DNA of 64,000 nt from Ephemerocybe angulata (taxonomy: Eukaryota > Basidiomycota > Agaricomycetes > Agaricales > Psathyrellaceae): the NCBI GenBank assembly GCA_013368325.1, contig JAACJK010000067.1, forward strand, positions 271,158 to 335,157. Reading direction: 5' to 3'. Below the pieces are notes generated by a model that was not told the DNA's origin, did not search any database, and saw nothing but the letters and a program-made list of their open reading frames with translations. The translations under genes were made by a program, and so were the position numbers. Shown in pieces: positions 21,761-41,940 of the stretch (the first letter of the stretch is position 1; each line of letters starts with the position of its first letter).

Positions 21761-22591
21761 AATTGCAATTTCTTGCTCGTCCTGCGAGAATGTGGGGGAA
21801 GAATAAGGTCGTGAAAAGTCGTCTGGAGCGTGAAGAGATTTAAAGGGTATCCAAGTTGCCTCGAGGTGATAGAAGGAAGGCAAGCCACGGAGAGAACGAT
21901 GCCGTCAAGTTGCGCCAAACGCGTGGTATGAGGTTCCGGATTTAGACGCGCGCCCGGGGAAAGCATGCACGTGACCGGAAATTGTTTGTACACCCTTCGG
22001 TGTACAAAGAACGCGAGGACGTCCAAATATCTGGATAAACTCGCAAAACGAGGCAAATAGAACTGATAAGCATCCAGACGACAGGATGTAATCTGAGATA
22101 GTCCCTTGAAGGAGCTCACCCGCCTTTACCGTTGTCATGGCGGGGGTAAAACTCCTATGACAAGGAGGACACGGTTGGAGGCTGTAATGGGATTTGTGCT
22201 TTTGAAATCAACCTGGGCTCCAGTAATTAATGGGGCCCCTCTAAAATCGTACAAGGCGCGTACAGAGTGAACCTGTGGAAGTGGGTGAAGGTGGAAGTAC
22301 GGGTTCAAGAAGCAATCCAGGCTTCGGAACCTGTCACGCGCCCGTGACCATGTCCGTGCGCAGGTCCTAGCGCGCGCCTAGTTACATATATAGAGCATAT
22401 CCACGTACCTAGATTATTTGTCTCTTGGTCGAATCAACGCGTTTTCCCCGTTTCCCGCATCCTCGCCTCGTCCCTCGACCTTGCCCGTACTTAACAGAAC
22501 GCGTCTTCATTGGGCGAGAGAACAAAGATGTACAAACAGCGCGACACCTCGTGATCTGCGACTTTCTCTCTTTCTGCAAGCGTCGTCAAAG
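21761..22591. promoter_or_regulatory. Former divergent intergenic region, left half
   Basis: Together with 41710-41940 this is what remains of the spacer between the minus-strand WD40 gene and the plus-strand UBE3D-like gene; the nested transposon splits it. It includes a 10-bp stem with CTTC loop at 21985-22008 (TTTGTACACC and its complement). No conserved gene is seen; the minus open frame at 21905-22138 has no recognisable motif. Confidence 0.45.
22584..22591. repeat. 8-bp target-site duplication of the outer transposon, left copy (CGTCAAAG)
   Basis: Identical to 41710-41717 on the far side of the element. Confidence 0.95.
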
Positions 22592-22627
22592 AGGACCCCT
22601 GAGAACTGGGGATTAGGTAAGATACGC

Positions 22628-22778
22628 GTCCACTCCTCAAAGGGCGCCGAAGGCGCCCGACCTCAGATACTAGCATAGTGAGCGTCCGCTCCTCGGCCGC
22701 ACCGCCACGATGGGTACCTTAGATACATAGTCCACTCCTCGGACCATTGCCGGGGAGGTTGGATACAGTCCACTCCTC
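22628..22778 (+). repeat. Left subterminal repeats of the transposon (4 units)
   Basis: GTCCACTCCTC or a one-base variant occurs at 22628-22638, 22684-22694, 22730-22740 and 22768-22778, each preceded at a distance of 1-15 bases by (A/G)GATAC. A GGGCGCC-GAA-GGCGCCC hairpin lies at about 22642-22658. Such arrays are typical transposase-binding sites. The inner copy carries the same array in reverse at 38647-38797. Confidence 0.85.
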
Positions 22779-25700
22779 ACCGGCTATGCCGGGGATCAGG
22801 GGGCAGCTGAGTAATATACGCAATTTCAAATCCCGACTCATCAATGCGATCACATACCCATTGTTCACTCACAAAGAACGGCTTTTGAATCTCAAACCAC
22901 GGTTGTTCCTGTACTACAACATAGGTTGACGACGATTTTTCATTCCCCTTGCCTCATCGACAGAGCCCTTCAATGCCGCCCACTCCTCCAGATCCTCTGG
23001 GCATTCTCGAGCCCTGGATTGGTAAAGGGAAGACATACAAAGATGTTCCCGACGATATCGCAGATGCTGTTACTGCCAGAGTAACCCTTAGCTCGACAGG
23101 CTTGGAGCATCTCCTCCCTTCAGTTGTCGGATGTACAATCCAGCAGCTCGTAAGCCACGAACTTCCAAAACGGTCCCATGCAACAACTATCTTCAACCCG
23201 AGAAGCCGCTACCACCCCAACCAACCAACAACCACGCTATCTGTCCTCCTTAAATGCAGCGACTGGTGTATTCCACCTCAGGCAACTTTGGATGGTCTTC
23301 GTGATGTCTCTGGCCAGGCTATCCTTGATGGTTGCAACTCGATCAAGGTCTGGGACATGAAGGATGCTATTTACGCGCCTTTGAGTGTCATCGGTCTATG
23401 GGCATTTCTCCTCGTTGCATCGACATCTCAAGCCAAATGGAAACTCGCACTACAGTGGCTCAACTCTGCCGCGGTTGATACAAGCTTGAAGGAGCGAGCA
23501 ATCTCAGCAATGGGACGCGTCCAATGGCAGGGAAAGTTACCTGCCATCTCGGATTGGCTTGATGTCAGTCGTGCACCGGAGTTCCTCAGCAACAGTTATT
23601 TGTCCACGTCGCATGTCAATGCAATGCTCTACCTGGTTCGTGAGCGTGTATCAAGAACCTCCGCAATATCGTCGACCACTTTGATATCATCTACGGATCT
23701 TGCGGACAGACTGTCGCACACGGATACAACCTATCCGAAGAATTCAATATTCGAAGCTCAAACATTTGGTACGTTCTCATATAGTTCCCTGGTTGACTAT
23801 TTTCTCATTCAGTATGTGCAGGGAATCAATTCTCGTCTGAACCGCAGAGGTACCAGTTGCTCACGGTCGCGTACTCACCACCAAACCACTGGGCAGCTAT
23901 GCGCTTGGACTTGCGAGGAAAAAATATCTCTGGCTCGTGGGGCGACTCTCTGGGCTGGAAGCAGCCGAAAAAGCTAGTCAAAGGCATCGGCATCTGGCTT
24001 GATTATCATGTACCCCTTCGACGATACACATTCTCGGATGACTTACCATGCGCGGTTCAAACGGACAGTTTCTCTTGTGGGATAGTTGCAGTCAACGCGC
24101 TCAAACACAACCTCTTTGGCGACCCTCTTTGGACGGCGCAATCAGCAGCGAAGCTACGTATCAAAGAGTTCTGCGATATTATGGATTCCGAATATCCGTG
24201 CCCCAATATCCAGCCATCCCTTGCCGAAACGTCTAGTGAACGGACTCTGATATCAGCAGTACCATTGGAAATTCCTCGTCCGGTCCAGGGCTTGCTCGTC
24301 CCTACTCCTTCCACTCAAGATAAGCGCTCGGTACATCCATTCTTTGGTGCTCCACGCCAGCCCCCCAAGCGCAAGCCAAGTCCTACGAACGAAACAAGCT
24401 CAAAGCCGACCAAAGCGCCACGTTTGGTCGCACCAAAGCCCACGAAGGTCAACGACAATCCAACAAGCAAGTCAAGTGGCCCGAAGAACACGTTAACCGG
24501 AAGATCTCGCTCAACTCTCGCTAAAAGGGACATAAATGAACAAGTTGCAAATGGAACATTCGTACGGTCTGACACCAAGTGGGAAGCCTACTTAACGAAG
24601 CTCAGGGGGCTTGATCCCGACGTTGAAGTGAACGAACGGGATATCACCGAGATACGCAAAGCCCGTCACTCGCAGTGTGCGCAGTGGATTACCCAGGACG
24701 AGCCATACAACATCTGGAAATTCAAGAAGCACCTTTTGACGTGTAAAGGAAAGGCCTCGAGCCGGCCAGCTGGAAATACCCGGACTCTAATTGCTATGGA
24801 TGCTGTGTCATTCATTCCGACACTAGACGCCGAGCCCAGTATGGTTGCAGCACAATCGACTTCACCTAGCAAGAAGCCAGCAGATATTGAGACATGGCCA
24901 TGTCCCGGTCTCAGCCAAGAGGATGATCCCCGTATCCCGCAATATTTCTCCCGCACAACTCAGCCCTCTGCTGGTGGAGTAAAGGCCAATATACTCGCAC
25001 AGTCTATGTTTGGTGTTGCATCAACTCGAGATCTCGACGAAAACCAGAGCAAGGCTCTTGCACTTAGGCAGCAGGCAACACACCGATGGCGCTTAGATCA
25101 TGGCGAGAAGCGGATATTTGCGATGGGAGAGCATCCATGTCATATCAACGTCACAGCAAAGTCCTTGGAAAACATCAAGCCGTGCCCCGCATGCAAGGAT
25201 CTGCTCTCGCTTCGCGCATTCCTCACCGCTATTCACAAGCCAATTCCTGAGGACAAGAATCGTATATACACACCTCACCAATTCCAATCTGCCTCTATTG
25301 GAAAGCAATTTGCAACAATTAAAGGCTTATCCTCACTCTTCAATGATACGGTACGTCTCAGAGATCTCAGATGTCCGACTACCCCATCATACTAATAATT
25401 TAACTACAGAACACAGTCGGACCACTTCTCCAAAGGTTTGTGCGAACGAGCTCCGACCTTGAGAGTAAGCCTGTGTTTAAAGGCATGCTCGAGGTAATGA
25501 TCGACAGGTCGGAGCGCGAGTCAAAAGGAAAAGGGCTTCAGAACATGAAGTATAGTCCCGCCTTTGATGAATGGGTCCACGAGCTGTGCTGTATAAGCCC
25601 AGAGGCCTATCGTTCTTTCCGAGATCACTTTGGCGGAAGAACCGAGCGCAGTTTTCGAGAGATCAGAGCGAAGCAACCTTCATTCAAGGAAGGATTTAAT

Positions 25701-25931
25701 CCTGAACAGTTGCTTTCTCGAGCCCGACAATACCTACAAGATCATGGCTACCCGCCATCTGGTCCACTATCGATGTCCGTTGATGACACGAAACTACATC
25801 CTTCGCTTTCACCATATTTCGACAACGAGCAGAAGCGATGGTACTTACTGGGATCAACACGGGGACCTCAGCTTGTGGATAGCTACGAACAGATCCCCGA
25901 GATCATGGCTCAGGAAAAGGATTTCAAGGCA

Positions 25932-25939
25932 ACTAAGCT
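25932..25939. repeat. 8-bp target-site duplication of the inner transposon, left copy (ACTAAGCT)
   Basis: Duplicated at 38834-38841. The unbroken sequence in the inner element's own gene has this 8-mer once, proving the insertion. Confidence 0.95.
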
Positions 25940-28900
25940 AGGACCCCTGAGAATCCCGGCCGAGGTCAGATACCAAAATCGGCGATCCGGGGTCTCGGGG
26001 AGTGGACGGAAAATTGCGATTTTTCGGCTTCCGGGGAGTGGATGCGGTATCTGACCTCCGAATTCGTACCTCGGGGAGTGGACTCCGTATCTGACATAAA
26101 TAAATGCCAGAAAATCGAAAATAATTCATAATAAAATTCCTACGCGCACTTTCTACATATCTACGTGAATTACAGATCTGTTTCGGGTGCTTCCTTGCTT
26201 TTCCGCAGTGTTGCAGTCAACTTGTCGATAGCAGCGCCAATCTGGGTCTGTTGGGAGCGGTACTTCATGAATACGCTGTCGTAGAATGACTGGTTTAGTT
26301 CCAACATCCCATTTTGCAAGGTGGACACATATTTGGCCGGGATGAAGTGGAGGAATCGTGAGGCAGGGAGATGCGCAAACCGGGGAAGCGACAGGTGTAT
26401 TGAGTGCCAGATAGCGCGGAACTGGCGCCTTCCCGGTATGTGCTGCCAGACCTGGATTGGGATGTATGAAAGACCGCCGATGGAGCTGACTTCCGACACC
26501 CATGCGTGTCGTGCTGTCTTTCCGCCGCCTTTCTCGTACATTGTGAGGACTGTAAATATATTTAATATCATATAACCTCATGTCTTAGCAGAAGAACATA
26601 CCTTTCCCAACCATTAACTGCCCATCAACGAAGACGATCCCGAAACTGGCCCCAACAAGGGTTGTGAGAGCGTCAATCTTTGCTGTTGCAAGGTCACCTC
26701 CACCGGTAATAGAAGCGAATGCTTGACGCCGTTTGTTGATAACCTATCGAACAGGTGAGCCTCATATTAAACCTGTAACTGGAAAGTGAACGACGCACTG
26801 TTGTTGCAGATGCTTTTGCGACAGCACTGGCATTCGCCGCATTGCCTGTAAGTGTGTCTGTCCGCACATACGCTGATGTGAGCTCATCGACTGAGGCTGC
26901 CGCAGTTTTCTCGTAGCGGAAGCGGCGATTTAGGCCTGACGCAATTCGGAACTCGATGTCCCTCTTCAAAACTGACTGGATCTTGCGTGCCAGTAGCTTC
27001 CGATCCGACGTGTCTGTCGTTGCCTCGTTCGATGAGTCTACATTCTTCTGGGCGGATCTGCGGACGGCGAGTCGTGCCTCTTTCGTTTCGTTTGCCTTTC
27101 GAACGTGGAACAAGGTCTTCAGCTCGAATCCAGAGAGATCTAGAGCGAAGGGCTGTGCATCAACTGGAGCTGGCTCGGCCGGGGTTTGAACTGAGTTAAG
27201 AAGTGCTGCCACGGCTTCTGCCCCTCGCTCGCTGTGGCGCGCAATTGCAGTTAGATACTCCTGCACGGCAAGTTGAATCTCGCGCATTGCTTCTGGGTCA
27301 TCCTCAGGGAGACTTTCACTAACTTTGATGTCAGTCAAAAGCTAATTGTTAATCTTGACAGAATACGCACATTGTCTCGTAGTCGGCAAACGAAAGTGAT
27401 GCCGCTGCGTACCCGCACTCTTGAATAGCCTCTCGGCACTCTTCCAATGGAGAGATATCTGCGCAGTACCTCTCTGCGAGATCCAGAGTCTCCTCAACCT
27501 CAAGACGGTCATCAGAAATAAGTGGTTCTGGATCGATGGGACGGCCCTTGGGATCAGCTGTTGCTCGTGCTGCCAGTATGTCTTCATCTTCATCGAGGCT
27601 CTCGTCGTTCACAGCTGAGGGGGCCGCTGGAGTCATAGTTGGCGGCGATGGTGCACCAGAGCTGAAGAAATACCCCAGCAAGGACCACAGAGTCACCGCC
27701 TCATCGTAGCCACCCTTGATGGCACTGTTAATCTCTTCATCGGGCGGGAAGTCCATGAGGGTTTGGAAATTGATGTCGTCGAAGTCAAAGTAGAAATGTG
27801 AGTATCCACTGGCTGTTTTCTGGAAGTCGACGTTGACCTGCTTTCTTCGACACGCTGCCAGTAGCCGCACGCGGATTTTGGGTACAAGTCGAACGAAGTC
27901 CAGAAACGAGAACTCGGGAACCATCACCCTGGTGAACCCAAAGGTATGTTCATTTGACTCGCTGCCGACAGTCCATGGTAACAATGGATATCTCCCTTCA
28001 AGGTGGTCACGGAAGATGAACAGAAGAGACATGTATCCATTGACGAAGATGTCAATGATGTCGTCAGCTTCGCGAGAAATGTAATGCTGTGCCTCCGAGT
28101 ACCCCGCCTCTTTCAAGAATGTCTTCCAAATCTCCTTGAAATAGAACGCTCGGTATAGCATCTTGATCCTATCGAGATGTGGGAGAGATCGGTTCTGGTA
28201 TGCGTCAACCATCTCACCGAAGATAAATAGGTATACCGTCAATCCCAAGTTCTCCGAGAACTGATCAATTGCATAGTCAAGGGTCGATGCTGAGAAAAGC
28301 CTGGCTGCAGCACGGTCATCTTGGCGGTCCAACTTCTCAACATCGCGAACGTAAAGTGGAGATCTCTCTTCGTCGATGGCCATCAGACGAATATGCTCGT
28401 AGAAAACAGTGAAGTTGCCCAGAACAAGAGTGCGAGCGCCCGACATGAGATTATTCCGACAAGTCTTTCGGAGGTGTTTCGCATCCTGGATGACGGCCAT
28501 GAGTGATCCTCGCACCGAGAGCATCTTGATCTCCAGAGTTGGAGTAAGCTGTAGGTCAGGAGAGGAGAGTCTTTTGACTTCCTCTTCAGCATATCCAGAG
28601 CGGACAGAAGCCCGGCGAGAGTCGCGTTCTACACTGGTACCGTCAGAACCAAGTGAGATTACACAGAACCCAGCAGGCAGAAGAACATCCAGTATCGCGG
28701 CTTCGAACTCGGCTAGCTGGACGGCGTTGATCTTCCCCGGAATGCCCTTTGCAGCAAGAATGAGTGGGGGTACTGCCGGAAGGGGGATATTCAATGTCCA
28801 TAGGCGCAGCTTAGTTGCCTTGAAATCCTTTTCCTGAGCCATGATCTCGGGGATCTGTTCGTAGCTATCCACAAGCTGAGGTCCCCGTGTTGATCCCAGT

Positions 28901-29649
28901 AAGTACCATCGCTTCTGCTCGTTGTCGAAATATGGTGAAAGCGAAGGATGTAGTTTCGTGTCATCAACGGACATCGATAGTGGACCAGATGGCGGGTAGC
29001 CATGATCTTGTAGGTATTGTCGGGCTCGAGAAAGCAACTGTTCAGGATTAAATCCTTCCTTGAATGAAGGTTGCTTCGCTCTGATCTCTCGAAAACTGCG
29101 CTCGGTTCTTCCGCCAAAGTGATCTCGGAAAGAACGATAGGCCTCTGGGCTTATACAGCACAGCTCGTGGACCCATTCATCAAAGGCGGGACTATACTTC
29201 ATGTTCTGAAGCCCTTTTCCTTTTGACTCGCGCTCCGACCTGTCGATCATTACCTCGAGCATGCCTTTAAACACAGGCTTACTCTCAAGGTCGGAGCTCG
29301 TTCGCACAAACCTTTGGAGAAGTGGTCCGACTGTGTTCTGTAGTTAAATTATTAGTATGATGGGGTAGTCGGACATCTGAGATCTCTGAGACGTACCGTA
29401 TCATTGAAGAGTGAGGATAAGCCTTTAATTGTTGCAAATTGCTTTCCAATAGAGGCAGATTGGAATTGGTGAGGTGTGTATATACGATTCTTGTCCTCAG
29501 GAATTGGCTTGTGAATAGCGGTGAGGAATGCGCGAAGCGAGAGCAGATCCTTGCATGCGGGGCACGGCTTGATGTTTTCCAAGGACTTTGCTGTGACGTT
29601 GATATGACATGGATGCTCTCCCATCGCAAATATCCGCTTCTCGCCATGA

Positions 29650-29654
29650 TCTAA
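29650..29654. repeat. 5-bp target-site duplication of the chromovirus (TCTAA), left copy
   Basis: Matches 36328-36332 on the other side; 5 bp is the usual size for Ty3/Gypsy integrases. Confidence 0.93.
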
Positions 29655-30152
29655 TGTCAGCGAACGACCGGTCTGGTGCGCTGCTAACCCTAACTTAGGA
29701 CAGAAGACGAGAGAGAGAGAAGAGGCGAGAGAATCAAGGCGAGAGACTTGTAGACAAGGCCGTGATATTGACCAGCTAAAGACTGGGGAAATACAGTGAG
29801 ATCTACCTAGGTTATATACTGCTATGCTTCGTGACCGTGACGTGACTATGGCTATACGAGGCTGTACATACTGTGCAGAAGCTGTGGAATGCTATGTAAG
29901 GAATGACCGTGTATGAGTCGAAGAGCTGTGCGAGTGCTGTGCATATGATGTCATGCTGACTGAGGTGCTGACTGATGCTGTGCCGGTCCCGTGATGTAGC
30001 AGGTGACCTGTGCATGTGATCGCACGTGCTGTGTCACGTGACCGAGACGCGTCTTGTAAATAGTAGAGAAATGAAAGACAAGAAATAAAGGAAAAAGAAA
30101 AGAAAAGGAAAAGAAAAGGAAAAAGAATAAATAGATCATCCAGGTCGTAACA
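29655..30152 (-). repeat. 3' LTR of the chromovirus
   Basis: 498 bp, same sequence as 35830-36327. It contains a purine-rich AAAAGG-type stretch at about 30087-30127 and repeated ACGTGA/CACGTG-like motifs. Confidence 0.95.
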
Positions 30153-33100
30153 TCACCCCCCCTTTAGCTTCGTCGTCCTCGACAATTTCAGCCTCTCTCC
30201 CCCTCGCTCGGTAGTGTCGGATTTCCTTCAGTTTCCCATCTGTCCAGTCAAAGATCGCTCTCTTGTTCTCGGTAAGGTTCTCGTACGGGATAAAGCGGAG
30301 TTGGTGTGGTTGGATCCGTCTTGGTGCACTCGGGTGTTTTCGGTGGAAGTCAGCTATAGCGTCCGCTGCATTATCAACGTTCCGTTCCGGTTCCCATGTT
30401 CGTTCTTCCTCAGGGTATCCAGCCCACTCTACGAGGTAATGGAGCTTCCCTCTGATGAACTTTGAGTCGTGGATGGCTTCAACTTCGTATCGTTCCTCTG
30501 TTTCATCAACAGGTGGTGGTGGCGGTGGTTTCTGTTGAGAGGGGAATTCGGGTTTTTTGAACAGAGTTAGGAGTGATTCGTTAAAGACAGGGTGGATGGA
30601 TTTCCACTTCGGAGGGAGTTGGAGTTGGTAAGCAGATTGTCCGATCTTCTTGACAATGGGGAATGGTCCATAGCGTTTATCCGAGAGCTTCCGAGAAGGA
30701 CGAGTGATCGAGATGTTGGTCCCTTCGAGGTAGACCTTGTCTCCGGGTTTGTAGTTTATGGCATCCCGGCGATGTCGGTCATAGTTCTCCTTCATCTTCT
30801 CAGCTGCTGCCTTGAGGCTGGAGCGTGCATCCTCGTGTACTTGTTTCATCCGCTCGGCGAATTGTTGCGCAGGTTCTGATTTTACACGTGTCCGGGCCTC
30901 TTTTCCTTTCCAAGGGTGCTGTCCGGAGTTGAGGAAGAATGGGGAGTAGCCTGTTGCTGAGTGGACCTTGTCGTTGTATGAGAAGACTGCTAATGGGAGC
31001 CATTCTGCCCAATCATCCTGTCGTTCGCTGATGAAGAGTCGGAGGTACTGTTCAAGCTCTTGGTTGATACGCTCGGTTTGTCCATCGGTTTGTGGGTGGA
31101 AGGCAGTGGATCGGTTGTGCTTTATTCCCAGAAGAAGAAGTAGATCTGTCATGAAGTTGGAGACGAATTGGGTTCCTCGATCACTGATGACCTTTTGGGG
31201 AAGACCGTGGTGTCGGAAAACATAGTCCCTGTATAGTTCGGCTACTCCTTTAGACGTAAGCTCGGTGGTTGTGGGTATGGCTTCGATCTTTTTGGAGAAT
31301 CTGTCGACAATCACAAGTATGGCGTTGCTTCCATTGGACTCAGGTAATGGGCCGATCATATCGATAGAGACGATCTCCCAGGGTCTGGATGGGATCTCGT
31401 TTGGGACTAATGGGGCTGCTGGGGAGGTACGCTTGGGTTTCGTCCTTTGACAGGCTTCACATCCTTCTACATATCGTCGAACTGAGTCCTGGATCTTTGG
31501 CCACCAGTAGTTTCGTGTGATGAGTTCACGGGTTTTGTACTGTCCTGGGTGTCCAGCGGTGGGGGCGTCATGGTGTTGTCTGATGATTTCTTCCCGTAGC
31601 TTCTTGTCGACTGGTACGTAAATCCGTCCTTTCCAGGTGATGATGCCATCTTCTGTCTCTTCCCATCCATCTTCTTTCTGTGAGAGTGCTTTTTCTACCG
31701 ACTTGTCCCTATTCCTGCACACCTTCAAGATCCGTCGCATGATGTCTTGGTCTGTTTCAATGGAAAGCGCTCGGAACCACTCGGATTTCAGGACCGTGAC
31801 GTTCTCATTATCCTGTTCTCCTCTGTCATGGCCATCTCGTCTGGACAGGGCATCTGCCTTGGCCATGGTCCTCCCGGGTCGGTGATGGAGCGTGAAGTTG
31901 TAGTCCTGCATTTCTGTGGTCCATCTCGCTTGTCTCCGGTTGAGCTTCTGAGGCTTCCTAAAGTAGCTAAGGTTCTTGTGGTCTGTGTGACATTCGAAGA
32001 TCTCCTCAGCTCCAAGTAGGTATTGTCTCCATTCAGATAGCGCAGTCATGATGGCGAGTAGTTCCTTATCGTAGATCTCGTAGTTCCGCTCCGTTGGGTT
32101 AAGGGCGTGCGACAAGAATGCAATCGGTTTCCATTTCCCATCTAGCTGTTGCTGTGATAGAATGGCACCGATGGCGAAGTCTGATGCATCACATTCGATT
32201 CGGAATTTCCCTTTGTCGTTGGGCATGGTAAGTACAGGTGCCGTCGTGATTCTCCGTTTTATCTCCTTGAAGGCTTCCTCTTGCTCCTTTCCCCACTCCC
32301 ATTCCTTCTTTCCCGTGAGTCCCGAGAGCGGTCTCGCTAGTCCTCCAAACCCTTCGATGAATCTTCGGTAGAAGTTGGCGAATCCCAAGAACTGCTGGAC
32401 TCCTTTGACGGATGTCGGAGCTGGCCAGTCTCTGACGGCTTTGACCTTTTCTGGATCCATGCGAACTTTGTTGTGGGAGACGATGACTCCAAGGTATTCG
32501 ACTTCCGTTTGTTCAAAGGAGCACTTGTCAGGCTTGGCAAAGAGCTTGTATCGCCGTAGCCTTTCCAGAACTTTGGTGACTAGTTTCCGATGTTCCTCCA
32601 GAGTGTCTGTGAAGATCAGGATGTCGTCCATGTAGATGACAACGTGTCCATCATTGATGAGATCTCTGAAGAGGGCGTTCATCATGGTCTGGAATGTGGC
32701 AGGTGAGTTCTTGAGACCGAAGAACATGACGAGGGGTTCAAACAGCCCACGGTTAGTGCGGAAGGCTGCTTTCCATTCATCTCCTTCTTTGATTCGGACA
32801 TTATTGAAACCCCATCGGATGTCGATCTTGGAATAGTACCGCGCTCCTCGGAGTTTGTCGATGAGTTCTTGGATGAGTGGAAGGGGATATCGATTGGTGA
32901 TCGTAATCTCATTCAGCCGTCTGTAGTCTTGGACAGGTCGTAGAGTACCGTCTTTCTTTTTGACGAAGAAGAGGGGTGCTCCCATCGGTGACTTCGATGG
33001 TCTGATCCTTCCTGATTTGAGGTTTTCTTCCAGGAAGGCATCTAGTTGCTTCTGCTCTTCTGGGTTCAGGGGATAGATTCGACTGTCCATTACTTCTGCT

Positions 33101-34083
33101 CCGGGTATGAGTTCGATCGCATGATCCCATGCTCGCCTTGGAGGGAGTTCATCAAAGGCTTCCTTTGAGAAGACGTCCTTGAAGCCATGATAGCATTTCG
33201 GGACTACTTCTTCAAATGTGCGCTCTTTGGTTGCCTTGTGTTTGGTTTCGGCAATTTTAGAGGCAGTGGTTTGGAAAGCCCTTATCTTGATCTCTCCTTG
33301 GATATCGATGGCTAGCAGTCGATCTCCAACCTCGATCTCTTCCCATTTGATCTCGTCTGATTCGGGGTCACCAGTTATGAGTGGCGTGCATTCGAGTGGG
33401 CATCGGTTGAATAAGATCTCTTTCTTCTGCCAATCGATAGAGGGGTTGTGCTTCTCCAGCCAGTCCATTCCTAGGAAGATCTTCGACTTGTCAAGGTTCG
33501 AAACGGCTAGCTCAATGCGTTCCGTGTGGTCCTTGATTTTGATGAAGAGTTCCACTACTTCGGTAATGGGTCCGTTGTTGTTTGGACTTCCATCAGCGTT
33601 ATAGACTGGTATAGGAAGGGGTAGCTGCCGCGTGTTGATCCCTTCTTCTTTGACGAATGCAGCATCGATACAACTTCCGGTAGACCCACAATCGATAAGA
33701 CCTTCGATAGAGAAGCTTCGCTTATCATCGCGTGTGCTTGCGACAATGTTGGCTGTAAGCTGTCTGTCCGTCCTTAAACTCCTTATGTATTGTTTGGGAG
33801 TTGCAAGACCGTTCAGTGCTTCTACTACTTCGGTGTCTGTGAGCTTTCGGAGTTTGGCAACGAGTTCATCTCCTACTTCTCGGACCTTCTTGTGATGTGT
33901 CCATGCAAGAAGAAGTCCTACTGCTCGATCGGGGCTATCATCAAGTCGCTGTGCGACCCATTCTGCCGTTCCTGGTTTTCCTTTCTTTCCTTTAAATCTG
34001 CCCTGGTTCTCTGATTCTTCGTCGAAATATAATTTATTGGGGATGGGGCATATTACGTCGGGTATCAGAATCTGAGAGTCCAT
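30136..34083 (-). CDS. pol: Chromovirus Pol polyprotein (protease, RT, RNase H, integrase, chromodomain), 1,315 aa
   Basis: An uninterrupted minus-strand frame from ATG 34083. Domains in order: retropepsin-like aspartic protease with active-site region LIDCGSTGSCID (Asp131; the usual DSG/DTG is here DCG); reverse transcriptase with VVIYMDDILIF (catalytic YMDD, residues 484-487); RNase H starting at IECDASDFAIGAILS; integrase with an HHCC zinc-binding block (HPGQYKTRELI ... CEACQRTK) and the DDE core (SIDMIGPLPES, ISDRGTQFVS, HPQTDGQTERIN); and a C-terminal chromodomain (YEVEAIHDSKFIRGKLHYLVEWAGYP followed by TWEPERNV), shown here in two parts of a longer block. The chromodomain steers integration to modified histones in relatives. 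The frame differs from that of gag, with 32 nt between gag stop and pol ATG. The last codons run through the polypurine tract and the stop TGA (30136-30138) lies inside the 3' LTR. Confidence 0.96.
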   Translation of the reverse strand: MDSQILIPDVICPIPNKLYFDEESENQGRFKGKKGKPGTAEWVAQRLDDSPDRAVGLLLAWTHHKKVREVGDELVAKLRKLTDTEVVEALNGLATPKQYIRSLRTDRQLTANIVASTRDDKRSFSIEGLIDCGSTGSCIDAAFVKEEGINTRQLPLPIPVYNADGSPNNNGPITEVVELFIKIKDHTERIELAVSNLDKSKIFLGMDWLEKHNPSIDWQKKEILFNRCPLECTPLITGDPESDEIKWEEIEVGDRLLAIDIQGEIKIRAFQTTASKIAETKHKATKERTFEEVVPKCYHGFKDVFSKEAFDELPPRRAWDHAIELIPGAEVMDSRIYPLNPEEQKQLDAFLEENLKSGRIRPSKSPMGAPLFFVKKKDGTLRPVQDYRRLNEITITNRYPLPLIQELIDKLRGARYYSKIDIRWGFNNVRIKEGDEWKAAFRTNRGLFEPLVMFFGLKNSPATFQTMMNALFRDLINDGHVVIYMDDILIFTDTLEEHRKLVTKVLERLRRYKLFAKPDKCSFEQTEVEYLGVIVSHNKVRMDPEKVKAVRDWPAPTSVKGVQQFLGFANFYRRFIEGFGGLARPLSGLTGKKEWEWGKEQEEAFKEIKRRITTAPVLTMPNDKGKFRIECDASDFAIGAILSQQQLDGKWKPIAFLSHALNPTERNYEIYDKELLAIMTALSEWRQYLLGAEEIFECHTDHKNLSYFRKPQKLNRRQARWTTEMQDYNFTLHHRPGRTMAKADALSRRDGHDRGEQDNENVTVLKSEWFRALSIETDQDIMRRILKVCRNRDKSVEKALSQKEDGWEETEDGIITWKGRIYVPVDKKLREEIIRQHHDAPTAGHPGQYKTRELITRNYWWPKIQDSVRRYVEGCEACQRTKPKRTSPAAPLVPNEIPSRPWEIVSIDMIGPLPESNGSNAILVIVDRFSKKIEAIPTTTELTSKGVAELYRDYVFRHHGLPQKVISDRGTQFVSNFMTDLLLLLGIKHNRSTAFHPQTDGQTERINQELEQYLRLFISERQDDWAEWLPLAVFSYNDKVHSATGYSPFFLNSGQHPWKGKEARTRVKSEPAQQFAERMKQVHEDARSSLKAAAEKMKENYDRHRRDAINYKPGDKVYLEGTNISITRPSRKLSDKRYGPFPIVKKIGQSAYQLQLPPKWKSIHPVFNESLLTLFKKPEFPSQQKPPPPPPVDETEERYEVEAIHDSKFIRGKLHYLVEWAGYPEEERTWEPERNVDNAADAIADFHRKHPSAPRRIQPHQLRFIPYENLTENKRAIFDWTDGKLKEIRHYRARGREAEIVEDDEAKGGVMLRPG
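30156..30165 (-). other. Polypurine tract
   Basis: AAAGGGGGGG on the minus strand, three bases before the 3' LTR, is the expected plus-strand DNA primer. It overlaps the 3' end of the pol reading frame. Confidence 0.85.
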
Positions 34084-34115
34084 GACCAGCTCGCTTGGGC
34101 GTTCGAGTGGTCCCT

Positions 34116-35270
34116 TTAAAAATCCTTCAACTTGGCTTTGAGGGCCTCAATCTCGGATTCGGGCATAGCGGAAAGGTCGAAGTCGTTGACGCGGGTGTAC
34201 TGGGGAGGGGCAGTGGTGTCTTTGGTGAATGGAGCAAAGGGCTTCTTGTTGGGAGACTTGCAGTCGGCGATCTTGTGTCCTTTGGCTTTGCAGTAGGCGC
34301 AGCTGACGTCGGGTACAGCCTGCCTGCAGGAGTCGGATCGGTGACCGGGTTTCCCACAAGTGTAGCAGATGAGAGGGGAGCGGTTGCGATCTATGTCCAT
34401 GGCGTTGGGGTCGCGAGCCGGGGTCGTGGCGTAGTGTGTGGGTCGATTGTTCTCCCTGGGAGTCCATCTCCTTTGGGTAGTCTGTTCGTTGTTCCGTTCC
34501 CCTTTCGCTAGGCGGAACTGTCTGTCCAAGGTGCATGCTTTCTCAGCCCATTCGGCTAAGGTCGTGGGCATCGGGATCAGTCCATAGATCTTGTCCCTGA
34601 GTGCCTTGTTCAGTCCTCGTTTGTACTCGGCAAGCATGGCCGGTTCGTTGTATCCAGCCTGGGTCGAGTATCCTTGGAAGAGGATGGTGTACTCTTCGCA
34701 GGTAGAGCTGCCTTGGACCAGGGTGCGCATCTTGTCGATGGCAGCTTCCGAGACGTTTTGGATAACGAAGTGGCTGTTGAAAGTAATGACGAATTGCTTC
34801 CAGTTCTTGAAGTAGAATGGTTCGGCGTCTGTTGCTTCATGGTTCTTGATGAAAGTTCTCTGGCTGTCTGCCCAGTGACTAGCCATGTCGTTCGTTCCTC
34901 CTTTGATCTTTGAAAGGGCGAAAATGATCCGTTGCTTCGTGTCGTCGACGTCCATGATGTCGTAGTACATCTCTAGTTCTGCGATGAAGCCTCCTGCTCT
35001 TTCAGGAGCTCCATTGAATTCTTTCGGAGGGTCGGGTTTCAGTTTCTTGAGCGCAGAAGTGGCTCGTTGCTTGGCAAGTTCCTCGGCGAGTTGGGTCTGT
35101 CTTTGGGTGAGGACGGCCTGTTCGTCGGAGGCTGCAGCGAGGTTGGTTGCTGCAGTGGAGAGTTGTGTGGTGCTTCGGTCGAAGGTTGTTGCGAAGGAGG
35201 CGACGATACTTCCAAGATTGGTCATAGTTGATGCCAGGGTGGCCATAGCGGCTTGGAGGGCTTCTGCCAT
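34116..35270 (-). CDS. gag: Chromovirus Gag, 384 aa
   Basis: An open frame from ATG 35270 on the minus strand. The N-terminus is Ala/Thr-rich and likely helical. The middle (RAGGFIAELEMYYDIMD ... WADSQRTFIKNH ... FKNWKQFVITFNSHF) is a retrotransposon capsid-type domain. The C-terminus has a CCHC zinc knuckle CYTCGKPGHRSDSC and a second, similar knuckle CAYCKAKGHKIADC. The product forms the virus-like particle and binds the RNA genome. It ends 32 nt before the pol ATG, in another frame, so Pol is made by reinitiation, frameshifting or readthrough; the sequence does not decide which. Confidence 0.95.
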   Translation of the reverse strand: MAEALQAAMATLASTMTNLGSIVASFATTFDRSTTQLSTAATNLAAASDEQAVLTQRQTQLAEELAKQRATSALKKLKPDPPKEFNGAPERAGGFIAELEMYYDIMDVDDTKQRIIFALSKIKGGTNDMASHWADSQRTFIKNHEATDAEPFYFKNWKQFVITFNSHFVIQNVSEAAIDKMRTLVQGSSTCEEYTILFQGYSTQAGYNEPAMLAEYKRGLNKALRDKIYGLIPMPTTLAEWAEKACTLDRQFRLAKGERNNEQTTQRRWTPRENNRPTHYATTPARDPNAMDIDRNRSPLICYTCGKPGHRSDSCRQAVPDVSCAYCKAKGHKIADCKSPNKKPFAPFTKDTTAPPQYTRVNDFDLSAMPESEIEALKAKLKDF

Positions 35271-35816
35271 GATAGGCGATGTGGGATAGGGGGTTGCTTG
35301 TGCGGATACTCGGTCCGATCCTATGCGTCAGGCTGCAGGATATACCGTACAGTCTACGCAATGCGATTTGCTTGAGGTCGTGGAGATCGAGTTGCTATCT
35401 CCGAGATGGCGACTCTTACGGAATGTGTCTACGTAGACTAGAGTGACCGTTGACAAACTACAAAGGGCCTAATTGGGCAGGAGAAAAGGGGTATTTGTAA
35501 ACTAAGCCCGAGCCGTAGCTCTTGATCGCTCTGAGTACCGGTTACCAGGTTCTTAGCTTCCCGTTATCGAAGATCACAACGAACGGGGAAGATCAGAAGT
35601 CTGGGCCTCTCACAGTGGGGCTTCTACGCTACGTGCTTAAGACCTAAAGTCTCGCGCTCTCCAAGGTGCTGCCTCCTACAGAGGGGCGTTGCTTGGGATA
35701 AAAGAGGATAGTGTGAAAATGGAATAAAGGGACACACGCCTAGGCGCGGGCAAGGTTTGATGGTTGTTGAGAGTGGTGATGGTGTCGAGGATCGAGGTGA
35801 TCGGCGACAAAGGAGA

Positions 35817-35827
35817 AGTCTTTAGCT
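35817..35827 (-). other. Primer-binding site, probably self-primed (Tf1-like)
   Basis: Two bases inside the 5' LTR the minus strand reads AGCTAAAGACT, the exact complement of AGTCTTTAGCT inside the LTR (35949-35959 and 29774-29784). The upstream TATATAA lies 34 nt before that LTR copy, so the 11-mer should be the first bases of the transcript. No TGG-type tRNA 3'-end complement is seen at the usual position. Confidence 0.75.
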
Positions 35828-35829
35828 AT

Positions 35830-36327
35830 TGTCAGCGAACGACCGGTCTGGTGCGCTGCTAACCCTAACTTAGGACAGAAGACGAGAGAGAGAGAAGAGG
35901 CGAGAGAATCAAGGCGAGAGACTTGTAGACAAGGCCGTGATATTGACCAGCTAAAGACTGGGGAAATACAGTGAGATCTACCTAGGTTATATACTGCTAT
36001 GCTTCGTGACCGTGACGTGACTATGGCTATACGAGGCTGTACATACTGTGCAGAAGCTGTGGAATGCTATGTAAGGAATGACCGTGTATGAGTCGAAGAG
36101 CTGTGCGAGTGCTGTGCATATGATGTCATGCTGACTGAGGTGCTGACTGATGCTGTGCCGGTCCCGTGATGTAGCAGGTGACCTGTGCATGTGATCGCAC
36201 GTGCTGTGTCACGTGACCGAGACGCGTCTTGTAAATAGTAGAGAAATGAAAGACAAGAAATAAAGGAAAAAGAAAAGAAAAGGAAAAGAAAAGGAAAAAG
36301 AATAAATAGATCATCCAGGTCGTAACA
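35830..36327 (-). repeat. 5' LTR of the chromovirus
   Basis: 498 bp. It carries a TATATAA box at 35987-35993 (minus strand), giving a predicted transcript start at about 35959, exactly at the self-priming 11-mer. Confidence 0.93.
35987..35993 (-). promoter_or_regulatory. TATA box of the chromovirus LTR promoter
   Basis: TATATAA on the minus strand, 34 nt upstream of the predicted start at 35959. The same box is at 29812-29818 in the 3' LTR, where it could drive transcription out into the inner transposase exons. Confidence 0.65.
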
Positions 36328-36332
36328 TCTAA
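36328..36332. repeat. 5-bp target-site duplication of the chromovirus (TCTAA), right copy
   Basis: Matches 29650-29654. Confidence 0.93.
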
Positions 36333-38833
36333 GCGCCATCGGTGTGTTGCCTGCTGCCTAAGTGCAAGAGCCTTGCTCTGGTTTTCGTCGAGATCTCGAG
36401 TTGATGCAACACCAAACATAGACTGTGCGAGTATATTGGCCTTTACTCCACCAGCAGAGGGCTGAGTTGTGCGGGAGAAATATTGCGGGATACGGGGATC
36501 ATCCTCTTGGCTGAGACCGGGACATGGCCATGTCTCAATATCTGCTGGCTTCTTGCTAGGTGAAGTCGATTGTGCTGCAACCATACTGGGCTCGGCGTCT
36601 AGTGTCGGAATGAATGACACAGCATCCATAGCAATTAGAGTCCGGGTATTTCCAGCTGGCCGGCTCGAGGCCTTTCCTTTACACGTCAAAAGGTGCTTCT
36701 TGAATTTCCAGATGTTGTATGGCTCGTCCTGGGTAATCCACTGCGCACACTGCGAGTGACGGGCTTTGCGTATCTCGGTGATATCCCGTTCGTTCACTTC
36801 AACGTCGGGATCAAGCCCCCTGAGCTTCGTTAAGTAGGCTTCCCACTTGGTGTCAGACCGTACGAATGTTCCATTTGCAACTTGTTCATTTATGTCCCTT
36901 TTAGCGAGAGTTGAGCGAGATCTTCCGGTTAACGTGTTCTTCGGGCCACTTGACTTGCTTGTTGGATTGTCGTTGACCTTCGTGGGCTTTGGTGCGACCA
37001 AACGTGGCGCTTTGGTCGGCTTTGAGCTTGTTTCGTTCGTAGGACTTGGCTTGCGCTTGGGGGGCTGGCGTGGAGCACCAAAGAATGGATGTACCGAGCG
37101 CTTATCTTGAGTGGAAGGAGTAGGGACGAGCAAGCCCTGGACCGGACGAGGAATTTCCAATGGTACTGCTGATATCAGAGTCCGTTCACTAGACGTTTCG
37201 GCAAGGGATGGCTGGATATTGGGGCACGGATATTCGGAATCCATAATATCGCAGAACTCTTTGATACGTAGCTTCGCTGCTGATTGCGCCGTCCAAAGAG
37301 GGTCGCCAAAGAGGTTGTGTTTGAGCGCGTTGACTGCAACTATCCCACAAGAGAAACTGTCCGTTTGAACCGCGCATGGTAAGTCATCCGAGAATGTGTA
37401 TCGTCGAAGGGGTACATGATAATCAAGCCAGATGCCGATGCCTTTGACTAGCTTTTTCGGCTGCTTCCAGCCCAGAGAGTCGCCCCACGAGCCAGAGATA
37501 TTTTTTCCTCGCAAGTCCAAGCGCATAGCTGCCCAGTGGTTTGGTGGTGAGTACGCGACCGTGAGCAACTGGTACCTCTGCGGTTCAGACGAGAATTGAT
37601 TCCCTGCACATACTGAATGAGAAAATAGTCAACCAGGGAACTATATGAGAACGTACCAAATGTTTGAGCTTCGAATATTGAATTCTTCGGATAGGTTGTA
37701 TCCGTGTGCGACAGTCTGTCCGCAAGATCCGTAGATGATATCAAAGTGGTCGACGATATTGCGGAGGTTCTTGATACACGCTCACGAACCAGGTAGAGCA
37801 TTGCATTGACATGCGACGTGGACAAATAACTGTTGCTGAGGAACTCCGGTGCACGACTGACATCAAGCCAATCCGAGATGGCAGGTAACTTTCCCTGCCA
37901 TTGGACGCGTCCCATTGCTGAGATTGCTCGCTCCTTCAAGCTTGTATCAACCGCGGCAGAGTTGAGCCACTGTAGTGCGAGTTTCCATTTGGCTTGAGAT
38001 GTCGATGCAACGAGGAGAAATGCCCATAGACCGATGACACTCAAAGGCGCGTAAATAGCATCCTTCATGTCCCAGACCTTGATCGAGTTGCAACCATCAA
38101 GGATAGCCTGGCCAGAGACATCACGAAGACCATCCAAAGTTGCCTGAGGTGGAATACACCAGTCGCTGCATTTAAGGAGGACAGATAGCGTGGTTGTTGG
38201 TTGGTTGGGGTGGTAGCGGCTTCTCGGGTTGAAGATAGTTGTTGCATGGGACCGTTTTGGAAGTTCGTGGCTTACGAGCTGCTGGATTGTACATCCGACA
38301 ACTGAAGGGAGGAGATGCTCCAAGCCTGTCGAGCTAAGGGTTACTCTGGCAGTAACAGCATCTGCGATATCGTCGGGAACATCTTTGTATGTCTTCCCTT
38401 TACCAATCCAGGGCTCGAGAATGCCCAGAGGATCTGGAGGAGTGGGCGGCATTGAAGGGCTCTGTCGATGAGGCAAGGGGAATGAAAAATCGTCGTCAAC
38501 CTATGTTGTAGTACAGGAACAACCGTGGTTTGAGATTCAAAAGCCGTTCTTTGTGAGTGAACAATGGGTATGTGATCGCATTGATGAGTCGGGATTTGAA
38601 ATTGCGTATATTACTCAGCTGCCCCCTGATCCCCGGCATAGCCGGTGAGGAGTGGACTGTATCCAACCTCCCCGGCAATGGTCCGAGGAGTGGACTATGT
38701 ATCTAAGGTACCCATCGTGGCGGTGCGGCCGAGGAGCGGACGCTCACTATGCTAGTATCTGAGGTCGGGCGCCTTCGGCGCCCTTTGAGGAGTGGACGCG
38801 TATCTTACCTAATCCCCAGTTCTCAGGGGTCCT

Positions 38834-38841
38834 ACTAAGCT
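38834..38841. repeat. 8-bp target-site duplication of the inner transposon, right copy (ACTAAGCT)
   Basis: Matches 25932-25939; after it the outer transposase frame resumes. Confidence 0.95.
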
Positions 38842-41565
38842 GCGCCTATGGACATTGAATATCCCCCTTCCGGCAGTACCCCCACTCATTCTTGCTGCAA
38901 AGGGCATTCCGGGGAAGATCAACGCCGTCCAGCTAGCCGAGTTCGAAGCCGCGATACTGGATGTTCTTCTGCCTGCTGGGTTCTGTGTAATCTCACTTGG
39001 TTCTGACGGTACCAGTGTAGAACGCGACTCTCGCCGGGCTTCTGTCCGCTCTGGATATGCTGAAGAGGAAGTCAAAAGACTCTCCTCTCCTGACCTACAG
39101 CTTACTCCAACTCTGGAGATCAAGATGCTCTCGGTGCGAGGATCACTCATGGCCGTCATCCAGGATGCGAAACACCTCCGAAAGACTTGTCGGAATAATC
39201 TCATGTCGGGCGCTCGCACTCTTGTTCTGGGCAACTTCACTGTTTTCTACGAGCATATTCGTCTGATGGCCATCGACGAAGAGAGATCTCCACTTTACGT
39301 TCGCGATGTTGAGAAGTTGGACCGCCAAGATGACCGTGCTGCAGCCAGGCTTTTCTCAGCATCGACCCTTGACTATGCAATTGATCAGTTCTCGGAGAAC
39401 TTGGGATTGACGGTATACCTATTTATCTTCGGTGAGATGGTTGACGCATACCAGAACCGATCTCTCCCACATCTCGATAGGATCAAGATGCTATACCGAG
39501 CGTTCTATTTCAAGGAGATTTGGAAGACATTCTTGAAAGAGGCGGGGTACTCGGAGGCACAGCATTACATTTCTCGCGAAGCTGACGACATCATTGACAT
39601 CTTCGTCAATGGATACATGTCTCTTCTGTTCATCTTCCGTGACCACCTTGAAGGGAGATATCCATTGTTACCATGGACTGTCGGCAGCGAGTCAAATGAA
39701 CATACCTTTGGGTTCACCAGGGTGATGGTTCCCGAGTTCTCGTTTCTGGACTTCGTTCGACTTGTACCCAAAATCCGCGTGCGGCTACTGGCAGCGTGTC
39801 GAAGAAAGCAGGTCAACGTCGACTTCCAGAAAACAGCCAGTGGATACTCACATTTCTACTTTGACTTCGACGACATCAATTTCCAAACCCTCATGGACTT
39901 CCCGCCCGATGAAGAGATTAACAGTGCCATCAAGGGTGGCTACGATGAGGCGGTGACTCTGTGGTCCTTGCTGGGGTATTTCTTCAGCTCTGGTGCACCA
40001 TCGCCGCCAACTATGACTCCAGCGGCCCCCTCAGCTGTGAACGACGAGAGCCTCGATGAAGATGAAGACATACTGGCAGCACGAGCAACAGCTGATCCCA
40101 AGGGCCGTCCCATCGATCCAGAACCACTTATTTCTGATGACCGTCTTGAGGTTGAGGAGACTCTGGATCTCGCAGAGAGGTACTGCGCAGATATCTCTCC
40201 ATTGGAAGAGTGCCGAGAGGCTATTCAAGAGTGCGGGTACGCAGCGGCATCACTTTCGTTTGCCGACTACGAGACAATGTGCGTATTCTGTCAAGATTAA
40301 CAATTAGCTTTTGACTGACATCAAAGTTAGTGAAAGTCTCCCTGAGGATGACCCAGAAGCAATGCGCGAGATTCAACTTGCCGTGCAGGAGTATCTAACT
40401 GCAATTGCGCGCCACAGCGAGCGAGGGGCAGAAGCCGTGGCAGCACTTCTTAACTCAGTTCAAACCCCGGCCGAGCCAGCTCCAGTTGATGCACAGCCCT
40501 TCGCTCTAGATCTCTCTGGATTCGAGCTGAAGACCTTGTTCCACGTTCGAAAGGCAAACGAAACGAAAGAGGCACGACTCGCCGTCCGCAGATCCGCCCA
40601 GAAGAATGTAGACTCATCGAACGAGGCAACGACAGACACGTCGGATCGGAAGCTACTGGCACGCAAGATCCAGTCAGTTTTGAAGAGGGACATCGAGTTC
40701 CGAATTGCGTCAGGCCTAAATCGCCGCTTCCGCTACGAGAAAACTGCGGCAGCCTCAGTCGATGAGCTCACATCAGCGTATGTGCGGACAGACACACTTA
40801 CAGGCAATGCGGCGAATGCCAGTGCTGTCGCAAAAGCATCTGCAACAACAGTGCGTCGTTCACTTTCCAGTTACAGGTTTAATATGAGGCTCACCTGTTC
40901 GATAGGTTATCAACAAACGGCGTCAAGCATTCGCTTCTATTACCGGTGGAGGTGACCTTGCAACAGCAAAGATTGACGCTCTCACAACCCTTGTTGGGGC
41001 CAGTTTCGGGATCGTCTTCGTTGATGGGCAGTTAATGGTTGGGAAAGGTATGTTCTTCTGCTAAGACATGAGGTTATATGATATTAAATATATTTACAGT
41101 CCTCACAATGTACGAGAAAGGCGGCGGAAAGACAGCACGACACGCATGGGTGTCGGAAGTCAGCTCCATCGGCGGTCTTTCATACATCCCAATCCAGGTC
41201 TGGCAGCACATACCGGGAAGGCGCCAGTTCCGCGCTATCTGGCACTCAATACACCTGTCGCTTCCCCGGTTTGCGCATCTCCCTGCCTCACGATTCCTCC
41301 ACTTCATCCCGGCCAAATATGTGTCCACCTTGCAAAATGGGATGTTGGAACTAAACCAGTCATTCTACGACAGCGTATTCATGAAGTACCGCTCCCAACA
41401 GACCCAGATTGGCGCTGCTATCGACAAGTTGACTGCAACACTGCGGAAAAGCAAGGAAGCACCCGAAACAGATCTGTAATTCACGTAGATATGTAGAAAG
41501 TGCGCGTAGGAATTTTATTATGAATTATTTTCGATTTTCTGGCATTTATTTATGTCAGATACGGA

Positions 41566-41652
41566 GTCCACTCCCCGAGGTACGAATTCGGAGGTCAGAT
41601 ACCGCATCCACTCCCCGGAAGCCGAAAAATCGCAATTTTCCGTCCACTCCCC
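41566..41652 (+). repeat. Right subterminal repeats of the transposon (3 units)
   Basis: GTCCACTCCCC or a one-base variant occurs at 41566-41576, 41606-41616 and 41642-41652; the first two are preceded by TCAGATAC. They are in the same orientation as the left array, not inverted. Mirrored in the inner copy at 25997-26083. Confidence 0.85.
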
Positions 41653-41709
41653 GAGACCCCGGATCGCCGATTTTGGTATCTGACCTCGGCCGGGATTCTC
41701 AGGGGTCCT

Positions 41710-41717
41710 CGTCAAAG
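41710..41717. repeat. 8-bp target-site duplication of the outer transposon, right copy (CGTCAAAG)
   Basis: Matches 22584-22591. Confidence 0.95.
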
Positions 41718-41940
41718 ATGCACACACGTTGCCCGCCACTACTACTATGCTATCCCCCTATTTCTAGACACCCTTGAACGAACCCCAGTAACGCCACTCA
41801 TTTATCATCTCTAATTACAGGCACAGACAGCGAGGTGCGCGCAATCGCCGCCAGAGAAGTTCTGTATTTGAGCCAAAGGCAAGTGCCAACAAATAGCTCA
41901 GCCTCTGCGATCTGACACCTTCTCTCATCACAGACCACCA
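41718..41940. promoter_or_regulatory. Proximal upstream region of the UBE3D-like gene
   Basis: The right half of the split intergenic region; only 223 bp separate the transposon's duplication from the start codon, so any more distal promoter elements are now 19 kb away. Confidence 0.4.

Follow-up and report, generated by a model that had tools for sequence, protein, structure and literature searches.

The 64,000-nucleotide stretch of the genome of Ephemerocybe angulata, an inkcap mushroom of the Psathyrellaceae, analysed here (hereafter the window; contig JAACJK010000067.1, positions 271,158 to 335,157, or G000:C73:271158-335157 in an assembly of 58,665,410 bp and 232 contigs) contains a DNA transposon that carries a second copy of itself in the opposite orientation, with a chromovirus lodged inside the inner copy. 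This arrangement is confirmed. The two copies are identical 6,216-bp elements, predicted to encode a P-type transposase joined to a Ulp1-like protease, and we consider it probable that the inner copy arrived by a short-range hop from one sister chromatid to the other.

The outer transposon (window positions 22592-41709, plus strand) is flanked by the 8-bp target site duplication (TSD) CGTCAAAG at 22584-22591 and 41710-41717, and the inner one (25940-38833, minus strand) by the 8-bp TSD ACTAAGCT at 25932-25939 and 38834-38841, as established for both by base-level inspection; ACTAAGCT is itself sequence of the outer element. The chromovirus, a long terminal repeat (LTR) element at 29655-36327 on the minus strand, is bordered by the 5-bp duplication TCTAA (29650-29654 and 36328-36332), which corresponds to transposon positions 2,502-2,506. 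All three duplications are exact, as stated in the preliminary description of this DNA. Since two 8-mers drawn randomly from the window coincide in only 3e-5 of cases (1.1e-3 for 5-mers), the two 8-bp matches located precisely at the borders of the terminal repeats are not a chance outcome. The terminal repeats themselves, previously described as exact, are so over the first 14 bp; over 34 bp (22592-22625 on the plus strand and 41676-41709 on the minus strand) the two ends of one transposon agree at only 76%.

Both copies have a net length of 6,216 bp, the outer one being split by the inner copy and the inner one by the LTR element, and the same value is obtained from the previously proposed inner pieces (to 29649 and from 36328), which count TCTAA once. 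Repeat finding over 21.5-43.0 kb detected three pairs of perfect inverted repeats, 2,876, 2,507 and 847 nt long, in agreement with the opposite orientation claimed earlier. The comparison of outer and inner copies suggested in the preliminary description was made on unjoined pieces of 2,506, 847 and 2,876 bp, together spanning the whole transposon and overlapping slightly, and gave 0 differences in each, that is, 0 substitutions over 6,216 bp. The nesting by itself fixes the order of events (outer, then inner, then LTR element), as had been proposed.

The copy number was assessed by searching the assembly with three probes of 1.4 kb each, taken from the two ends and the middle of the transposon, the resulting counts being lower bounds. 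Full-length matches were confined to the two nested copies, the middle-probe match in the inner copy being divided by the LTR element, and the probes detected no further full copy of the transposon. Both end probes additionally hit a 1,323-bp element on contig C22, the right one at 72% and the left one at 70%, over ~200 bp. A 1.6-kb probe from the left flank gave one full match, at the nest, and a 54-bp match at one other place, and a 1.4-kb probe from the right flank matched at the nest locus only; with one full match for each flank, no empty-site allele is seen in the assembly. Self-insertion had been called unusual on first description, but self-insertions of P constructs are reported in Drosophila (PMC4744444), and the notable point in the present case is rather that the search detected no full copy beyond the nest.

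The transposon, left unnamed in the preliminary description, is predicted to belong to the P superfamily on account of its modelled transposase fold. The predicted protein has an RNase H-like core in which a large helical insertion separates the second acidic residue from the third, as in the P-type fold, and a fold search with this model favoured P. The candidate catalytic residues D116, D222 and E453 are present in 52, 53 and 51 of the 54 family members, respectively, their pairing with the P catalytic triad being drawn from their position in the model (ends of core strands, start of a helix) and not from a residue-level alignment. An exact 8-bp TSD accompanies each of the six insertions whose ends were located, namely the outer and inner copies and the same-genome relatives L017, L019, L020 and L022.

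Membership in another superfamily with 8-bp duplications, such as KDZ or hAT, appears very improbable. Such duplications are indeed reported for both Zisupton (within KDZ) and hAT (PMC12730594), and hAT was considered on this ground, yet it provided neither a domain match nor the closest fold. Plavaka elements, considered because of the mushroom host, are reported to make 2-3 bp duplications (PMC12730594), and the structure search favoured P. KDZ was considered as well; no KDZ Pfam hits at E<=0.1 were present among the 54 members, and we know of no solved KDZ structure.

The N-terminal region of the predicted protein appears to contain a protease domain of the Ulp1 (C48) type, as judged from a profile match and from its His-Asp-Gln-Cys residues. 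The window frame 23857-25392 has a match to XopD, a protease of the Ulp1-like type (E 6.7e-4), a profile of 34 sequences matches yeast Ulp1 (1euv, E 9.9e-12), and the protease His, Asp, Gln and Cys are kept in 33, 30, 32 and 33 of these 34 sequences. The Pfam model PF02902 scored above cut-off in L017, L019 and the proteins P0181, P0126 and P0131, that is, in three of the five scanned full-length gene models and both scanned N-terminal frames of same-genome relatives, and it was precomputed for 21 of 120 proteins among the matches listed; in the same Pfam scans neither P0138 and P0121 nor the frames of the window itself reached the cut-off. One of these proteins, P0181, is a database protein annotated in Ephemerocybe angulata, parts of which match the element on contig C220 at up to 100%.

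Because P0138, a 1,611-aa protein of Candolleomyces aberdarensis, is collinear with the element over 23006-25958 and on through the transposase (~40-60% identity), the protease and the transposase are predicted to form a single spliced fusion protein. In the outer copy (plus strand) the putative gene comprises the N-terminal region with the start of the Ulp1-like domain (22949-23977), the remainder of this domain followed by Cys/His clusters (23857-25395, with NHW at 23884, GDS at 23941 and the Cys codon at 24076), the beginning of the transposase domain up to the point where the inner copy interrupts it (25440-25939), and the rest of the transposase beyond it (38842-41496). In the inner copy (minus strand) the Ulp1-like and Cys/His part (36333-38476) is separated by the LTR element from an open frame of 652 aa in which the RNase H-like transposase domain is predicted (27349-29307), and several frames collinear with P0001 and P0138 make up the C-terminal part (26153-27338). 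Each insertion point is intact in the other copy, so the open frames at that place can be seen without joining pieces. The Cys/His clusters between protease and transposase are conserved, and Pfam scans of the element proteins and their relatives gave no match to the THAP domain. A structural model of the protease-to-transposase stretch had pLDDT 75.5 and pTM 0.38.

As to the origin of the nest, we infer a local hop following replication. One of the two sister copies would have been moved by cut-and-paste into the copy on the other sister, aided by local hopping of the P type. The insertion would have disrupted the outer transposase gene and left the inner copy whole, until the chromovirus cut the inner gene between its protease and transposase parts, with the outcome that no unbroken copy of the subfamily is seen in the assembly. 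The first break, noted earlier, holds: the outer frame is interrupted after FKATK, in a stretch conserved across the family. For a uniformly random insertion the chance of hitting one given 6.2-kb copy is 1.06e-4; if hops are instead spread uniformly over 50 or 150 kb, the self-hit chance rises ~552-fold or ~192-fold. Drosophila P elements are reported to prefer targets ~50-150 kb away (PMC7776569). Given the low chance of a random hit and the precedents of P elements for local hopping and self-insertion, we prefer the sister-copy hop, which also needs no third copy and explains the zero divergence. On this reading, the transposon likely destroyed its own source by hopping over a short range.

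Several observations weigh against this reading. At the sequence level the P assignment has weak support: the P-type helix-turn-helix model PF12017 was matched at E<=0.1 by 6 of the 54 members (best 5.2e-4) and not by the window's own protein, where the weak match of P0119 (E 0.023, below cut-off) falls at residues 34-76; five of the element's frames from the window had no Pfam hits; and a profile search of PDB sequences gave chance-level hits only, the P element not being found. The chance argument is post hoc, as the locus was noticed for being nested. Local hopping is assumed for the window's family by analogy with Drosophila P, and nesting in an element of the same kind is seen in none of the four others whose ends were located. 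Finally, an additional copy could once have been present and later lost, the genome-search counts being lower bounds.

This last point leads to a distant donor, an identical copy located elsewhere that inserted here at random and subsequently disappeared through loss or segregation, which we regard as possible but rather unlikely. The identity of inner and outer copies would require just a recent donor, and cut-and-paste elements leave their sites, while a sexual fungus can lose unlinked copies. On the other hand, such a donor would have had to hit this particular 6.2-kb copy at the random chance given above, and no other full copy was found in the assembly, where empty donor footprints were not searched for.

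The absence of free copies could also be given a different meaning, namely that the backwards self-jump built an off switch comparable to Mu killer of maize, transcripts of the nested pair folding into a long hairpin that would feed RNA interference against the transposase and silence the subfamily. The reversed inner copy indeed creates, within the transposase gene, a perfect inverted repeat of 847 bp (25093-25939 on the plus strand and 28808-29654 on the minus strand) with a 2,868-nt loop, and a transcript reading in from the outer 5' end, or out of the minus-strand 3' LTR, would span both arms if long enough. The genome has Argonaute, RNA-dependent RNA polymerase and Dicer domains, and in Mu killer ~1.3 kb of mudrA in an inverted duplication is reported to silence MuDR (PMC3440606). 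However, MuDR-silencing plants are described in the same source as having short antisense transcripts unable to form the large hairpin, and simpler causes exist for the absence of other copies in our three-probe search. A silencing role strikes us as doubtful. Among the Argonaute-related loci, two Piwi-domain stretches on contig C146 (G000:C146 1490033-1491033 and 1507629-1508629) lie 17.6 kb apart and have identical scores, perhaps a recent Argonaute duplication.

The identity of the two copies might instead result from gene conversion between the arms of an older insertion, since close inverted copies can convert; if conversion acted, 0 differences over 6,216 bp would give no age. We find this highly unlikely, as the later-inserted pair of 498-bp LTRs is likewise identical, which fits plain youth. 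An upper bound on the age of the pair of ~241,000 to 24,000 years, at an assumed 1e-9 to 1e-8 substitutions/site/year, is not relied on here. A misjoining of separate copies or strands, conceivable for a large near-palindrome of identical sequence that is hard to assemble, was rejected as scarcely credible given two independent exact 8-bp duplications (the inner one in outer-element sequence), flanks with one full match each, and LTR copies at 93-100% identity resolved in many places, which suggests long reads.

The identification of the LTR element as a chromovirus (Ty3/gypsy) is supported by its LTRs, gag, reverse transcriptase and chromodomain, and bears out the earlier description. Its two identical 498-bp LTRs (3' LTR at 29655-30152, 5' LTR at 35830-36327, minus strand) enclose a gag-like frame with a zinc knuckle (34116-35270) and a pol-like frame (30136-34083), both on the minus strand. 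Separate scanned pieces of these frames match PF03732 and the zinc knuckle and, in two pieces of the pol-like frame, the aspartyl protease, the reverse transcriptase PF00078 and the chromodomain PF00385 (E 1.6e-14); inspection of the interior start of the element identified no primer-binding site. For this LTR family 40 hits, 93-100% identical, were scored of 76 candidates in the genome, and 12 of 14 same-strand neighbouring pairs are spaced by 6,147-6,272 bp. These figures indicate a family that is common in the genome and looks young. Two same-family LTR pairs, at G000:C107 91288-103546 and G000:C218 78196-93679, are 11.8 and 15.0 kb apart instead of ~6.2 kb, and are possibly further nested insertions or separate copies.

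A protein search of the genome revealed five further loci with transposase matches at 32-50% identity. Three of these, L017 (6,750 bp), L020 (6,770 bp) and L019 (7,149 bp), carry AGGACCCC ends flanked by an exact 8-bp duplication; the search for terminal repeats and duplications did not find the ends of L018 and L021. The 1,323-bp element on contig C22 (L022, G000:C22, 4218-5540) likewise has AGGACCCC ends, its 35-bp ends matching at 91%, and the 8-bp duplication AATTTGGG; it resembles the ends of the window's transposon (70-72%) and is probably non-autonomous.

The nest lies between a minus-strand frame on its left (22119-22591) and plus-strand frames on its right (41718-42183), which possibly share a promoter, a type of site that P elements are reported to prefer (PMC7776569). 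Further to the right, a frame at 43340-44788 matches HECT_2 (E2-binding, E 1.8e-20).

Overall, the element points to a mushroom lineage of P-type transposons that Pfam models recognise poorly and that would carry a Ulp1-type protease in the same gene. Should SUMO or a similar tag prove to be the substrate of this protease, the domain would hint at the way in which a P-type element deals with host chromatin or silencing. The nest neatly exemplifies how a low-copy transposon is broken through insertion into itself, and with it one can readily test whether an inverted self-insertion seeds RNA silencing of its family. Our literature search, carried out without Repbase and most subscription papers, found no mushroom P element and no P element with a Ulp1 domain.

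Among known systems, the Drosophila P element (PDB 6p5a, 6pe2) shares with the window's transposon the 8-bp duplications, the short terminal repeats and the predicted transposase fold with its helical insertion, and both local hopping and self-insertion are reported for it (PMC7776569, PMC4744444). The window's transposon differs in sequence (13% identity), in its N-terminal Ulp1-like protease and Cys/His clusters, in the lack of a detected THAP match and in size (6.2-7.1 kb with its relatives). The self-insertions of P{lacW} in Drosophila are likewise cases of a P-type transposon landing in its own copy (PMC4744444), but P{lacW} is an artificial construct, whereas the element described here is natural and full-length. 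KDZ elements resemble it in the 8-bp duplications of Zisupton, and Kyakuja and Zisupton are reported from Agaricomycetes (PMC12730594); they differ in that no KDZ Pfam match was found here and that the predicted fold is P-type. The inverted partial duplication of a transposase gene recalls maize Mu killer (PMC3440606), except that Mu killer is a rearranged MuDR with shown silencing, whereas the present case is a nested insertion with a merely possible silencing role. The P elements of rust fungi (Repbase P-1_PSt and P-1_MLP) also reside in basidiomycetes and make 8-bp duplications, and were presented in 2011 as representing a superfamily previously unknown in any Dikarya (PMC3164196).

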